A stretch of DNA of 64,000 nucleotides from Halonatronum saccharophilum DSM 13868 (GCF_000517025.1 NZ_KI912095.1:352888-416887); one strand, 5' to 3'. Positions 1-6,604 are shown, counted from the stretch's first letter. Numbers and translations: made by a program. Notes: generated from the sequence alone by a model not told the origin.

Positions 1-2438
1 TCTACTCTAGAACTTCTTGTTCTTTCAAACACTGCTCTTTGAAGGGTACTTTTTCTTATCAAAGTACTATTAGGTTGCAATTCACACCTCTCTGCTCCCA
101 TTTTACTATACGTTTTTTCTTTAGTATCATTACTTGCAATTTCTAATACTTCTGATAGACTTTTTCCTCGTATGAGTTCAAATCCCATTGAATATCCAGA
201 ATAGTCTTTTCTAGTATGTCTAGTTGGGGGTGTATGCGCTAAAGAAATTATTATTTTTCTGATTCCTTTATTATTAATAAAATCCTCTGGAACAGGTATT
301 TCATAAACATCAAAATTATCTAGTCTAATTTTTCCTTCTGCGTATAAAGTTACTCTATTATCAGATGAATATAACGCTTTATTTAGATTTGGAATCCCAT
401 ATCCACAAATTCTTAAAAGGTATTTATCAAATTCTGCATCATAACCTGGAATAACCTCAAGTAAATTTTTTAACTCCTCAGAACACGAATTACTTTTTAA
501 TAGCTTTCCTTTGTTTGTTACATTAACTATTCCTTTATCTATACAATCTTGAATTACATCTTCTATTTCTTCATTAAAGTCACTTTTATTTTCTTGAAGA
601 AAAGAAACAAGTTGACTATGAGCTTGATTCATATAATCTTTAAGCAAACAACAAATTTCTTCTGAAGGAATAGCAGAATTAGATAATAAAGCTCTAATTG
701 TATTATTAGTGAAATTAAAATTATAATTAAGAATTCTAGCAGATAAATTAGCTATAAAAGGAGCAGAAAAACTTGTCCCAGTATCGCAAGCAAAAAGCTT
801 ATCATCTTGCATGTATTTATGATTAATCGAAAAAACACCTGTCTCTATATTTCCTCCAACCAGTGCTTTATGATCACCATCATAATACATGTTCCCGCCA
901 TATGCTACAAACTCAGGCTTTATAGTGTCGTTTATTCCTAACCCACATCTAGTAAATGGAGAAGGCTGATTAACAGAAGCGATTGATACTTTTCTAATTC
1001 CTTTAGCTTTTTCTTGTGGATTTCTATAACCTCTGCTAGTTCTAAGCTCTGTTGAAACAGAACCTACAGTTAAACAATTAGTAGCTGTTGCAGGATCTAA
1101 TAGACCTGCCGATTCTTTGAATAAATACTCAGGATAACATTTAACTATCCCTTCACCACTAATATCAAATTGTTCTTGAAATTGATTAGGGGTGATATTT
1201 CCCGTAGAAATAACTACTATAATATCTCTTTCCCTAACTAAATTATCTAATACTTGTGCCCATTTGCTTTGATACTGGTTACCTTTATATATATTATCTG
1301 GGTCTCCTAAAGAAATATTAAAAATTCGACACCCAAACTGATTATTATAATATTCAATAGCCCTCTTTATTTGTTTTATGTAAATTTTATCATTAGGCCC
1401 AAGGTTTGAATCTTCATCAGTAACTCTAGCACTATATAATTTTACCTCAGGTATAAATTCATTTTTCTCTATACATTCATTAATATCACCATATAAAGCA
1501 ATTCCAGCCACAAATGTGCCATGGCCATTTTCATCTATTCCATCATTTAAATCTCCTCTAAAAACATCATAATCTACAATTGCATTTTCTAATAATGGAT
1601 GTTTTGGCATAACCCCACTATCTATAATACAAACCCCAGCAGCATCTTCATCAGGAGTACCAGGATTGATTTCAGATAAAGGAGTTCTAACTTTTCTAAT
1701 TCCCTTTGACATTAGTTTAGGTGGAAAATCAATTTGACAAACAATATCTTCATTAAGTAGTTCTTTTAAAGCATACCCTGAAACTTCTGCTCGTAACATA
1801 TGTAAGTGATTATCTATATAATAATCAGTTATTCTGCCTTGATCACCTATAATTGTTTTTATATCTTGTTCTGAGCTTTTACACTCTAGTTCAGAGCCAC
1901 TATACCACAATTCTATATCTACCCAATAATATTCATCGTCAATTATTTCTTTACCCTGTAATTTAGATCCTTTTCTATCTTCTGGCTCTAACCTTTTTAG
2001 TTGTTTTATATTATTAAAAAAACTTACATAAGGAGGGTTATTTGAAGAAGTTAACTCCCCATTACTATACTTATCCCACCTTTCTAAAAATTGTTCCATC
2101 ATTTCTTCATTAGAAAAAACAACCTGAGCTTTACCACCGGTTGGAATTTCACCTAACAAACGACAACCACCCCTCATAAGATCATCTTCTAATAATGGCT
2201 TTTCATATTCAATCTTAAATATCAAATGGGGGTTTATGCCTTTATCTTTAGCTTGTTGCTTTATTTGCTTTTGAATTCTATCTATATCAGTTTTAACTTG
2301 TTCAGAATGTGTCTTTCTATCTTTATCAGGAGGAATAAAAGCTCCTCCTCCTGGTTGTGATTTATATCTTTCTTCCTTATCATGAGGTATGTTCACAAGT
2401 TCTAAGTTAGGATAAGGAAATTTATTCTGGTCTTGCAT
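1..2438 (-). CDS. Subtilisin-like serine protease, IetS-like (partial, C-terminus outside window)
   Basis: The frame opens with ATG at 2438 and stays open for 812 codons to the window edge, so the C-terminus is missing. It is a peptidase S8 (subtilase) protein with a complete catalytic triad: Asp273 in IIDSGV, His306 in GHGTFVAG and Ser556 in GTSFSAP, plus the oxyanion Asn414 in STGN. About 250 residues precede the protease domain and at least 230 follow it. There is no signal peptide, so it probably acts in the cytoplasm. An SD (GGAGTGA) lies inside the end of the AAA+ ATPase gene 7 bp upstream, so the two are co-transcribed. The ATPase-then-subtilase order and sizes match IetA/IetS, described as an antitoxin/toxin pair on an Agrobacterium Ti plasmid and later grouped with anti-phage systems. 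The catalytic role is seen in sequence; the defence role is inferred. Confidence 0.85.
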   Translation of the reverse strand, partial: MQDQNKFPYPNLELVNIPHDKEERYKSQPGGGAFIPPDKDRKTHSEQVKTDIDRIQKQIKQQAKDKGINPHLIFKIEYEKPLLEDDLMRGGCRLLGEIPTGGKAQVVFSNEEMMEQFLERWDKYSNGELTSSNNPPYVSFFNNIKQLKRLEPEDRKGSKLQGKEIIDDEYYWVDIELWYSGSELECKSSEQDIKTIIGDQGRITDYYIDNHLHMLRAEVSGYALKELLNEDIVCQIDFPPKLMSKGIRKVRTPLSEINPGTPDEDAAGVCIIDSGVMPKHPLLENAIVDYDVFRGDLNDGIDENGHGTFVAGIALYGDINECIEKNEFIPEVKLYSARVTDEDSNLGPNDKIYIKQIKRAIEYYNNQFGCRIFNISLGDPDNIYKGNQYQSKWAQVLDNLVRERDIIVVISTGNITPNQFQEQFDISGEGIVKCYPEYLFKESAGLLDPATATNCLTVGSVSTELRTSRGYRNPQEKAKGIRKVSIASVNQPSPFTRCGLGINDTIKPEFVAYGGNMYYDGDHKALVGGNIETGVFSINHKYMQDDKLFACDTGTSFSAPFIANLSARILNYNFNFTNNTIRALLSNSAIPSEEICCLLKDYMNQAHSQLVSFLQENKSDFNEEIEDVIQDCIDKGIVNVTNKGKLLKSNSCSEELKNLLEVIPGYDAEFDKYLLRICGYGIPNLNKALYSSDNRVTLYAEGKIRLDNFDVYEIPVPEDFINNKGIRKIIISLAHTPPTRHTRKDYSGYSMGFELIRGKSLSEVLEIASNDTKEKTYSKMGAERCELQPNSTLIRKSTLQRAVFERTRSSRV

Positions 2439-2445
2439 AGCAATA

Positions 2446-3474
2446 TCACTCCATTTCCATTAAACCATCATAAATTTTCTTCCGTCTTTTCTCTTCATCT
2501 ATACATTCTTTTATTACATCTTCATTAACAAAATCTCTATTATCTATGATACAAGCTTTTATAGCATCTTTACAAATACGTTCAATTTGAGAATGAGACA
2601 TACCATCTAATTCTCCACTTATTTTTTCAAAATTAATATTAGTTTTGAAAACTCTAAGTTTTTTCTTTAATAATTTCTGAATCTGATCTAAACCTGGCTT
2701 ATTAAAATATAAAATTTCATCAAATCTTCTCCAAATAGCACTATCAAGTAGATGTTGATGATTGGTAGCTGCAATAAATAATGTCTTTGTTTTAAAATTA
2801 TCTAGCATTTGTAAAAATGTATTAACAGATCTTTTGAGCTCGCCATGTTCGTTTTCGTCTTCTCTACTTTTGCCTATAGTATCAAATTCATCAAAGAAAA
2901 CAACCCATTTGCCAGTTCCCGCATACTGAAATATTTTTCTTAAATTAGATGCTGTATCCCCCAAATAGGAAGAAATTAAGGAATCCATATGAACATAAAG
3001 TAAAGGTAAATTAATTTCATTAGCTAAGGCCTGAGCAGTTATTGTCTTTCCACATCCAGGAGGACCACAAAATAAAAGTCTTCTTTTTGCATCCAAGTTA
3101 TAACCTCTTAATTCATTAGCACTATGATATTCAAGCATAATTCTATTAATTACATTCTTATTTTCATCAGATAAAACTACATCTTCTAAATAATAATTAG
3201 GTTTAATAATAGAAACTAAATCAGCTCCACCTTTATCATCTCTAGGCAAGCTATTAAAGTAACTTCCATTTATGGAACTGGAATGATTTTTCCTATATTC
3301 ATCGTTATTCTCATTAGGAAAAGAATTAAATAATTGTTGTAATGAATTAGCAAGTTTGTAATGAGATTTATCTTTTTCATCTTCTATTATCTTTTTTGCT
3401 ACTTGTTTGAATCTAATGTGATTATTTTCATTATAAGCCTTAAATAAACTTTCTACATATTTACCTTTAGGCAT
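2446..3474 (-). CDS. AAA+ ATPase, IetA-like partner of the subtilase
   Basis: This is a 342-residue protein with one AAA+ module: Walker A GPPGCGKT at 137-144, Walker B VVFFDEFD at 191-198, a sensor-1-like IAATNH near 237 and an arginine-finger-like WRRFD near 250. The first 100 residues are charged and not recognised. FtsH/ClpX-type protease domains are absent. ATP-driven remodelling of a partner is therefore likely, and the subtilase encoded 7 bp downstream is the obvious candidate. The start at 3474 has a strong SD (GGGAGGGGG) seven bases upstream, and an extended -10 promoter lies 50 bp farther up. In the IetAS family the ATPase is the antitoxin-like member. Whether it restrains or activates the protease here cannot be told from sequence. 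Confidence 0.85.
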   Translation of the reverse strand: MPKGKYVESLFKAYNENNHIRFKQVAKKIIEDEKDKSHYKLANSLQQLFNSFPNENNDEYRKNHSSSINGSYFNSLPRDDKGGADLVSIIKPNYYLEDVVLSDENKNVINRIMLEYHSANELRGYNLDAKRRLLFCGPPGCGKTITAQALANEINLPLLYVHMDSLISSYLGDTASNLRKIFQYAGTGKWVVFFDEFDTIGKSREDENEHGELKRSVNTFLQMLDNFKTKTLFIAATNHQHLLDSAIWRRFDEILYFNKPGLDQIQKLLKKKLRVFKTNINFEKISGELDGMSHSQIERICKDAIKACIIDNRDFVNEDVIKECIDEEKRRKKIYDGLMEME

Positions 3475-3921: not shown

Positions 3922-5514
3922 ATGAAAAATGGTATAGCTTATATACGAGTATCTAAAGCCAGGGCCAATATGATTACCCAAGATACTCAACTTGAAAAAA
4001 TTGAACAATACTGTAGCTTACATGATATAGAACTACTGAGCACTTATATGGACTTAGACTTCTCTGGTAGATCTACTAACCGCCCAGATTTTCAAAAGTT
4101 ATTTTATGATATTGAAAATGATAATATAGATGTTGATTATCTATTAGTGTACAAACTAGATCGCTTTGCTAGATCAGTTAATGACTTTCATGAATATATG
4201 GATATTTTAGATAAACATGATATTAACTTTGTTTCTATCACTCAACACTTTGACACTTCTACCCCTATGGGTCGCTTGGTAAGAAATATACTTGTTGATT
4301 TTGCTCAATTTGAATCGGAAATGGTTGGAGAGCGTGTTAGAGATAATATGCTTCAAAACGCTCAAAACGGTGTATGGAACGGTGGGCCAGTCCCCTTAGG
4401 GTTTAGCCTTAATGAAGATGAAAAAGGCCCTAATATAATACCTAATGGACGAGCTAAAGACATTATAAAGTTTTATAATTGGTACTTAGAATCAGATGGA
4501 ACCATAAGAAATAATTCTATGCGGGCCAACAAACAAAGAATTCCTTCCTCTACTGGTTCTGTATGGAACCCAAATCAAATGAGTAGAATATTAAAAAACC
4601 CTATTTATTGTATAGCTGATAAGGAATCAATCAAATATTTTGAAGATCAAGGTTTTGAAGTGTTGAATAAACAAGCTAATGATGGTAAAAGAGGGTTTAT
4701 TAGATATAACCGTCGTAAGCCAACAGGAACTACTTCTGTTGTAAGAGATAAGTCTAAATGGCTTATAGCAGTTGCTGAACATGAAGGTATTGTACCATCT
4801 GAACTATATATCAAAGCTCAAAAAAAACGAGATAAACGAAAAAATAAACCTGTTAGGGCAGGTACAGGTAAAAGTCTTTTAGCGTGGTTAACTAAATGTA
4901 GTAAATGTGGAAGAGCTATGACCTATAGCTATTCATACTCTAAGCTTGCTGATGGTACTAAAAAAAGATATAACTATTATAAATGCAGAGGTAAGCAGCA
5001 ACAGGGAACTATTACTTGTGAAGGCCAAACTGTTAAAGCTGAACAGTTAGAAAAAGTAGTCTTAAATAAACTTCACTCTTTATGTAATGACAATGATTTC
5101 TTAAATGGATCTCGTGGTAAAATCAATTCTTTGTCTGAACATATAAATCAATTAAAAGAACAGAGAAAAGAAATCAACTCTAAAATAAATCAATTAATTT
5201 CCGAAGAAGAAAACTTAATCAATACACTTAAAAGAAGCAATTCCGAAAGGCTGTTAGTTATAATTGAAGAAAAAGTTGAGGAGTTAAATAAGAGTAGGTT
5301 AGAATTAGAAGCTCAGTTAGAAGAAATTCAAACTCAACTATTAGATTATGAAGCTGAAGAATACAATAAACAAATTATACTATCTCATCTCAGAGATTTT
5401 AATAATAGTTTTGACAGTATGAGTTTTGAGGAAAAAAGAGAGTTTTTACAATCTGTTATAAATAAAATTATCTACAATGAAGGCGATGTTAAGCTGGAGC
5501 TCTTTTTTTCGTGA
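3922..5514 (+). CDS. Large serine recombinase (site-specific integrase)
   Basis: This is a 530-residue large serine recombinase. The N-terminal resolvase domain (about 3-150) carries the nucleophile Ser11 in YIRVSKA and the YKLDRFARS arginine motif at 77-85. A recombinase domain follows (about 165-290), then a zinc ribbon with Cys326, Cys329, Cys355 and Cys366, then a coiled coil (about 395-500). All parts usual for an integrase of this class are present, so it looks intact. The gene points toward the boundary with comM and ends about 35 bp from it; its last bases overlap the altered 3' end of the comM fragment. Such enzymes integrate and excise phages and mobile elements without host factors, often with an excisionase-like directionality factor, none of which is visible here. 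Its position marks it as the integrase of the element carrying the ATPase-subtilase pair. Confidence 0.93.
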
Positions 5515-6604
5515 TAAAGGGAGGGGTTTTCATTTGCATTTTTGTAATGAACGGGCAAGGGTTTAAAGCTCCGATCAGAGTAAAGCGAGCAGGATAATTT
5601 AAGGTTGTCAAGGCTCTAGAGATAGTAACCTCTCCCTCTTCTAAAGGTTGACGCAGAACTTCTAGGACACTCTTCTTAAACTCTGGTAGTTCATCTAAGA
5701 AGAGTACTCCATTATGGGCCAACGTCACTTCACCAGGCTTTGGTATCCTCCCTCCACCTATCAAACCTGCATTGGAGGTAGTGTGATGGGGGCTTCTAAA
5801 AGGAGGTTCTGCAATCAAATTATCGGTCTTAGGTAATCCACCGACAACACTAAAGATCTTTGTTACCTCAATAGCCTCCTCCTTAGTCAAAGAAGGTAAT
5901 ATAGTAGGAAAACGCTTTGCTAGCATAGTCTTTCCTGACCCAGGCGGGCCAACCATAATCAGATTATGACCACCTGCTGCTGCAACCTCTAAGGCCCTCT
6001 TGGCATGTTGTTGGCCTTTTACATCAGAAAAATCAACTTTAAACCGACTGGCAGCTTTAGGCTCAAATGAAGTCTTTAGACCTTTTATACTAATATCTCC
6101 ATTTAAATAACCTATAGTCTCTTTTAAAGACTCTACAGGAATAATCTCTAACCCTCCTATCAAAGAGGCTTCCTTAGCATTCTCTTTAGGAAGTATAATC
6201 CCCTTCTTAGCTCCTTCTTTAGCTGCTAGAGCCATTGCTAGAACACCTTTTACCCCTCTAATCTCACCATCTAAAGATAGCTCACCAATTAAAGTAAATT
6301 CCTCTAACCTTTTTTCATCTATAAAACCCATTGCCGACAACATACCTACTGCTATAGGCAGGTCAAAGGTTGCCCCTTCCTTCTTTATATCAGCAGGAGC
6401 TAGATTAACAGTTATTCTCTTAATGGGAAATTGATACCCCGAATTCTTAATAGCAGCCCTTACCCTCTCCTTTGCTTCTTTAACAGCCACATCAGGAAGA
6501 CCTACTATATTAAAAGCCGGCAAACCCTTAGAGAGATCAACCTCAACCTGTATCAGATACCCTTCCACCCCCAAAACGCCATTACTCTCTGCTTTTGCTA
6601 ACAT
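5489..6604 (-). pseudogene. comM: ComM/YifB Mg-chelatase-like AAA ATPase, 5' fragment interrupted by the element
   Basis: The frame gives 371 residues; full ComM/YifB proteins are about 500. The N-terminal Lon-protease-like domain (1-170) and the Mg-chelatase ATPase core are present, with Walker A GPPGSGKT (219-226) and Walker [11 protein letters not shown] (300-309). After residue 351 the sequence diverges into a tail of about 20 unrelated residues encoded by the inserted element, and the sensor-2 and C-terminal domains are missing. ComM is a hexameric branch-migration helicase that helps integrate transforming DNA in Gram-negative bacteria; its role in Bacillota is less clear. The loss looks reversible, because excision by the neighbouring recombinase would restore the gene. 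The start has a good SD (GGAGGAGAG). In related genomes yraN-comM-dprA-topA is common, so the comM end and dprA may lie left of the element. Confidence 0.88.
5530..5580. other. Predicted attachment-site junction of the integrated element in comM
   Basis: On the minus strand the comM reading frame keeps family identity through ALNPCP (codons about 346-351) and then leaves it. ComM/YifB proteins normally continue with a CGYYGD-like stretch, whereas here the frame runs into unrelated residues and stops at 5489. The last family-like bases are about 5553, so the crossover lies near 5545-5560, a few tens of bases beyond the recombinase stop. The matching second junction and the comM 3' part should lie to the left of the window. 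Confidence 0.7.

Follow-up and report, generated by a model that had tools for sequence, protein, structure and literature searches.

A prophage-borne ATPase–subtilase pair of the IetAS family in Halonatronum saccharophilum and its possible action as a restrained suicide protease

To which of the known protease-based systems do an ATPase gene and a subtilase gene belong that lie side by side at the end of a mobile element in Halonatronum saccharophilum DSM 13868, and what would they do for the element that carries them? The pair is located at positions 1–3474 of the window (i.e., the whole stretch of DNA analysed, 64 kb in length, numbered 1–64,000 and corresponding to G000:C6:352888-416887), where the two reading frames run on the minus strand:

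2446–3474, minus strand: ietA, classic AAA+ ATPase, 342 aa (PF00004, E 2.1e-34; PADLOC IetA PDLC02196, E 1.1e-94; AlphaFold2 pLDDT 88)
1–2438, minus strand: ietS, subtilase (Peptidase_S8; Pfam, PADLOC), with an in-window ORF at 3–2438 that is open at the left edge
1719–2438, minus strand: IetS N-terminal region, residues 1–240 (AlphaFold2 pLDDT 87, pTM 0.90; best PDB match 3afg; no Pfam family)
627–1655, minus strand: IetS catalytic subtilisin domain, residues about 262–604 (PF00082 at 269–604, E 5.8e-43)
1–626, minus strand: IetS post-protease region, residues 605–812 of 605–886 (alignment and AlphaFold2)

The window holds 812 of the 886 residues of IetS, and the last 74 codons lie beyond its left edge; once the neighbouring genome sequence was added, the protease gene was completed (L003:11666-14326). 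ietA lies 5′ of ietS, the intergenic gap is 7 bp, the Shine-Dalgarno sequence of ietS (GGAG) sits within the end of ietA, and 3′ of ietS there is a hairpin of 17 bp that ends in a T-rich tail. Judged from this arrangement, ietA and ietS very likely form a two-gene operon. It had been claimed in a preliminary description of this DNA that the adjacent genes share one promoter; the operon layout makes a shared promoter plausible, but the promoter-like matches found for ietA-ietS (33, against 28.7 ± 5.1 in shuffled sequence) are not above chance.

First of all, the IetAS-like identity that had been proposed was confirmed by profile search, which names IetAS rather than an unrelated housekeeping family. 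According to the PADLOC definition, an IetA profile match (residues 8–329) and an IetS profile match (PDLC02198, E 5.3e-118, with its best stretch at residues 36–608 and a second stretch present) are found in adjacent genes with ietA first. Among the PHROGs, IetA corresponds over nearly its full length to phrog_3757 and IetS over residues 22–876, also nearly full length, to phrog_3964, both being phage families of unknown function. The present pair is a member of the IetAS family, a kind that is already known and whose carriage by prophages has already been published. A housekeeping identity (FtsH, PAN, Cdc48 or a secreted subtilase) was considered separately and rejected, since the IetA profiles score far better and IetS is found in only 2 of the 13 genomes of the order.

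The two genes also keep together in their relatives, which were counted by alignment-based scans (80 loci in genomes, and 22 viral ones that matched well); matches in viral contigs below about 200 bits, which are partly general subtilases and partly distant IetAS pairs, were left out. ietA is directly 5′ of ietS in all 80 genome loci, within 60 bp in 77 of them, and in the other three (L149, L153 and L182) a gene is broken, shortened or overlapping. The same order was seen in 19 of the 22 viral loci, the remaining three being convergent (L039), overlapping (L054) or without an IetA found (L050). Moreover, the distances among IetA and among IetS sequences co-vary (Mantel r 0.85, 0 of 2000 permutations). 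Chance is excluded by the profile E-values and by the fact that the two genes adjoin in every genome locus. As for the exceptions, L039 (7770-11194) is a provirus in which ietS and ietA lie convergently beside serine integrases, and L050 (7386-9611) is a viral contig with IetS and without a recognised IetA. When 398 genomes of the phylum were scanned for the family, 10 of them had IetS; single-protein scans for close relatives returned only the provirus itself and zero relatives in genomes.

The ATPase has the intact Walker motifs attributed to it earlier: the Walker A residue K143 and the Walker B residues D195/E196 are invariant in 42 of 42 IetA sequences, as are the sensor N238 and the arginine fingers R249/R250. 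Its predicted fold is a classic AAA+ domain behind a small helical N-terminal domain, the nearest folds being PAN, the 26S Rpt subunits and p97, and IetA is probably hexameric. The pore-loop position is aromatic in 38 of the 42 sequences. Such an aromatic residue is found in threading ATPases, by analogy with PAN and FtsH.

In IetS, the catalytic triad that had been described as intact (D273, H306 and S556) is invariant in all 56 aligned sequences, together with the oxyanion residue N414. The closest PDB fold to the AlphaFold2 model (mean pLDDT 87, pTM 0.90) is the pro-form of Tk-SP (3afg; 721–727 columns in Foldseek). The TM-score normalised to query length rises from 0.32 against the mature enzyme 9ues to 0.38–0.39 against the Tk-SP pro-form, a gain worth about 55–60 residues, and it is likewise higher for pro-subtilisin E (3whi, 0.29–0.30) than for mature subtilisins (about 0.23). 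Residues 1–240 are modelled as two beta-alpha-beta-beta-alpha-beta (ferredoxin-like) units, at 72–149 and 170–237. Since the pro-forms outscore the mature subtilisins in these Foldseek comparisons, the second unit is most likely placed like a subtilisin propeptide.

It had been suggested that the long regions on both sides of the protease could hold a sensor or target-recognition domain. The regions do exist, but the N-terminal one is propeptide-like, the C-terminal one is a predicted beta-sandwich, and both are family-wide. Residues 31–240 have a mean occupancy of at least 0.94 in the alignment of relatives, so this region, being found in almost all of them, is no special sensor of the present copy; the comparison of predicted structures, with its two ferredoxin-like units and best match to 3afg, gave a sensor no support either, and a Pfam search of the region recognises no family. 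A sensor domain at the N-terminus is thus not supported on any of three grounds, i.e., the Pfam result, the propeptide-like fold and the family-wide presence. Behind the catalytic domain, residues 601–660 form a helical insert (occupancy below 0.2) found in few relatives, and the beta-rich region 3′ of it is conserved throughout the family. The order of a propeptide-like domain, a subtilisin domain and a C-terminal beta domain is the same in Tk-SP, and the first two follow each other in the same way in pro-subtilisin E. Both of these are secreted enzymes. IetS, unlike them, has an extra N-terminal ferredoxin-like unit, an ATPase partner and a start of polar, charged residues.

The mobile element with an integrase beside the pair, as it had been described, is now defined as a 54-kb serine-integrase prophage inserted in comM. 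At the integrase end, its features in the window are the following:

3922–5514, plus strand: large serine integrase, 530 aa (PF00239/PF07508/PF13408; phrog_95 integrase, E 5.8e-110)
5553–5557, no strand: core TGCCC of the attachment site at the integrase end; a second copy lies at G000:C6:304253-304257, 54.2 kb away
5558–6604, minus strand: 5′ part of comM (yifB), the interrupted host gene (TIGR00368); its 3′ part is at G000:C6:303805-304095 with PF13335

Compared with the intact comM of relatives, the crossover falls within the codons for Asn-Pro-Cys-Pro; among 12 relatives of the order, 11 have an open comM frame (509–523 aa). To the left of ietAS there are cargo genes of unknown function, an ImmR/ImmA-like repressor and metallopeptidase, more repressor-like genes and RecT, as well as the terminase, head morphogenesis and major capsid genes. 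The integrase, attachment sites, head, packaging and lysogeny genes are thus all within one element, and the prophage looks complete; IMG/VR already lists it as a 52.6-kb provirus carrying an identical IetS. By its gene content, the carrier is a temperate phage that occupies a serine-integrase target, with ietAS as cargo at its integrase end. In the same prophage, L003:4407-5409 encodes an HTH repressor followed by an M78 metallopeptidase, which resembles the ImmR/ImmA lysogeny switch. Between the repressor genes and ietS (L003:5478-11365), the cargo includes ORFs of 448, 183, 213, 105 and 243 aa without a Pfam or PHROGs match, and one for a protein of 329 aa whose end is weakly SH3-like. In the twelfth of the relatives compared (L204:6983-15756, in G008:C23), comM is broken at the Asn-Pro-Cys-Pro codons by a related element, whose two serine integrases are 54 and 63% identical to the present one; this element also holds a chemoreceptor-like gene and an ImmR/ImmA-like pair, and no IetAS was seen within its available 7.7 kb. 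To judge from these two insertions, comM is a repeated target of this serine-integrase group.

Given this position near a repressor–metallopeptidase pair, the pair might act in phage development, processing the repressor or phage proteins upon induction, and have to do with neither defence nor addiction. We regard this as very improbable: full-length homologues occur on plasmids and on chromosomes without phage genes, the available stretch of the related comM prophage lacks IetAS, and the present pair lies outside the head and packaging gene block.

The neighbourhoods of relatives are varied. The nearest homologous pair (IetS 58% and IetA 76% identical; G001) shares its strand with brxF-brxC-pglX, which follow immediately downstream, so that it looks like part of a BREX island (L023:499-11095), and the second-nearest, in Halanaerobium congolense, adjoins AbiH. 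These two and the present pair form one clade with three different neighbourhoods (BREX, AbiH and prophage), so that no fixed chromosomal position is seen among the three closest members. Other relatives have type I R-M (L026, L029), Gabija together with BREX (L028) or a TIR protein as defence neighbours, while plasmid-borne ones, of which the full-length representatives are about 30–35% identical, adjoin relaxase, transfer and toxin-antitoxin genes. In addition, serine integrases other than the present one accompany phage lysis or head genes at L027, L040, L044, L188 and L043. Such prophage-type neighbourhoods are scattered over three or more separate clades of the IetS tree, and this suggests that acquisition was repeated.

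The anti-phage immunity in which the pair had been placed by the preliminary description is possible for it. Against the NCBIfam anti-phage IteAS equivalogs (NF042956/NF042959), IetS scores 90.9 bits with a cut-off of 900, and IetA 252.7 bits with a cut-off of 510. The IetS of Escherichia phage vB_EcoS-683R6, on the other hand, clears the NCBI anti-phage IteS model with 1043 bits against the same 900. In that phage the pair (L022) has replication genes on one side and antiterminator Q on the other, the context being lambdoid and Rac-like; it is likewise an ATPase–subtilase pair in a temperate phage and both proteins are homologous, yet its IetS is 25% identical to the present one over the catalytic domain only and stands on a deep, separate branch. 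In the IetA tree, where several branches are long and the details unsure, the two pairs are on opposite sides of a fork with support of 100/99, and the present pair groups with plasmid- and island-borne pairs. One may still imagine a pure anti-phage machine without any role in prophage maintenance, in which a phage protein is recognised or unfolded by IetA and then passed on to IetS, or IetS is thereby switched on, in the manner of a two-protein threading protease. The classic AAA+ fold with its pore-loop aromatic, the relatives in defence islands and the score of the 683R6 protein are in its favour; with the present pair far under the model cut-off and on the other branch, and with published relatives acting as toxin and antitoxin, so that the protease does not need the ATPase for its activity (PMC5006074, PMC8562856), we consider it unlikely.

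Toxin-antitoxin action is the best-documented activity of relatives, and the present pair resembles such a module in having a catalytically intact subtilase and an intact ATPase that are near-obligately paired. The IetAS of pTiC58 was reportedly studied by Yamamoto in 2009. It has been reported that IetAS of the Agrobacterium plasmid pTiC58 and SgiAT of Salmonella genomic island 1 (SGI1) consist of an AAA-ATPase antitoxin and a subtilase toxin, and that in SgiAT the toxicity of the protease shows within 30 min and is relieved by the ATPase (Huguet 2016, PMC5006074). By description, gene order, the two enzyme families and mobile carriage are as here; however, the carriers are a plasmid and an integrative mobilizable element instead of a prophage, and their function was tested experimentally, whereas the present pair is known from sequence alone. 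The module TA132/3 of Mycoplasma mycoides subsp. capri, also likened by description, again has an adjacent ATPase antitoxin (353 aa) and subtilisin toxin (757 aa) (PMC8562856), but it is chromosomal in a mycoplasma. In Pseudomonas aeruginosa, IetAS on the Pf prophage PfAC08 has a statistical link to phage resistance, with the mechanism stated as unknown (PMC11878078); it is prophage cargo as here, with an ATPase 38% identical over 55% of IetA, although PfAC08 is a filamentous phage and the present carrier a tailed one that has a serine integrase and sits in comM. The reference ietAS accompanies an ICE integrase in 91% of cases in Salmonella Typhimurium (PMC9958689).

These precedents could be taken to mean that the pair is purely an addiction module, which kills or slows only cells losing the prophage and leaves other phages unaffected: the pairs of pTiC58 and SGI1 help to keep their plasmid or island stable (PMC5006074), and many relatives sit on plasmids beside relaxase, transfer or toxin-antitoxin genes. 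Close relatives, however, are in chromosomal BREX, R-M, Gabija and AbiH neighbourhoods with no obvious element to hold, the SGI1 operon under its own putative promoter gave no post-segregational killing (PMC5006074), and an IetAS on a mobile element has been associated with resistance (PMC11878078), so that this reading also appears improbable.

We favour the reading that the pair, as prophage cargo, amounts to a restrained suicide protease and serves both maintenance and superinfection exclusion, with a probability of roughly 0.55. In it, the cytoplasmic subtilase IetS would be held harmless by its AAA+ partner IetA, as lysogenic cargo beside the serine integrase; by analogy with the experimentally studied relatives, IetS alone would be toxic and IetA would neutralise it. 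When IetA is lost with the prophage, or disturbed by a second phage taking over the cell, IetS would be released, cleave host proteins and stop the cell, and the module would thereby keep the prophage in the population and shut out other phages. Because IetA has a pore loop and arginine fingers, control might, as a guess, work through ATP-driven remodelling of IetS, e.g., of its propeptide-like domain. This reading is supported by the profile matches, the invariant residues, the near-obligate pairing and co-variation, the prophage and defence contexts, the toxin-antitoxin relatives and the resistance-associated IetAS of the Pf prophage; it is weakened by the locus without a recognised IetA (L050) and the convergent one (L039), and toxicity and defence could be separate properties of different branches. 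A more specific form of it is tentative and rather doubtful: IetS would be an intracellular subtilisin zymogen whose propeptide-like domain is held or pulled by an IetA ring, and phage takeover or prophage loss would turn it into a suicide protease, so that temperate phages with serine integrases would have a single device for addiction as well as for superinfection exclusion.

New here are the completion of the protease, the exact definition of the element with its comM site, the interpretation of the N-terminal region as propeptide-like, and the position of the pair outside the branch that meets the anti-phage equivalog. The structural insight into IetS is modest, but the family-wide propeptide-like domain and the propeptide–subtilase–beta-domain layout suggest, in a concrete and testable form, how the protease may be restrained, and the prophage setting would allow maintenance and superinfection exclusion to be separated experimentally. 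Moreover, the two deep branches suggest that the function of the anti-phage branch is not to be assumed for every PADLOC IetAS match. The E. coli-type pair itself is carried by many IMG/VR proviruses (L061-L074, L079, L083 and L022), with an IetA of 384 aa; their IetS has 754 aa in all but one, which is cut at the contig end.
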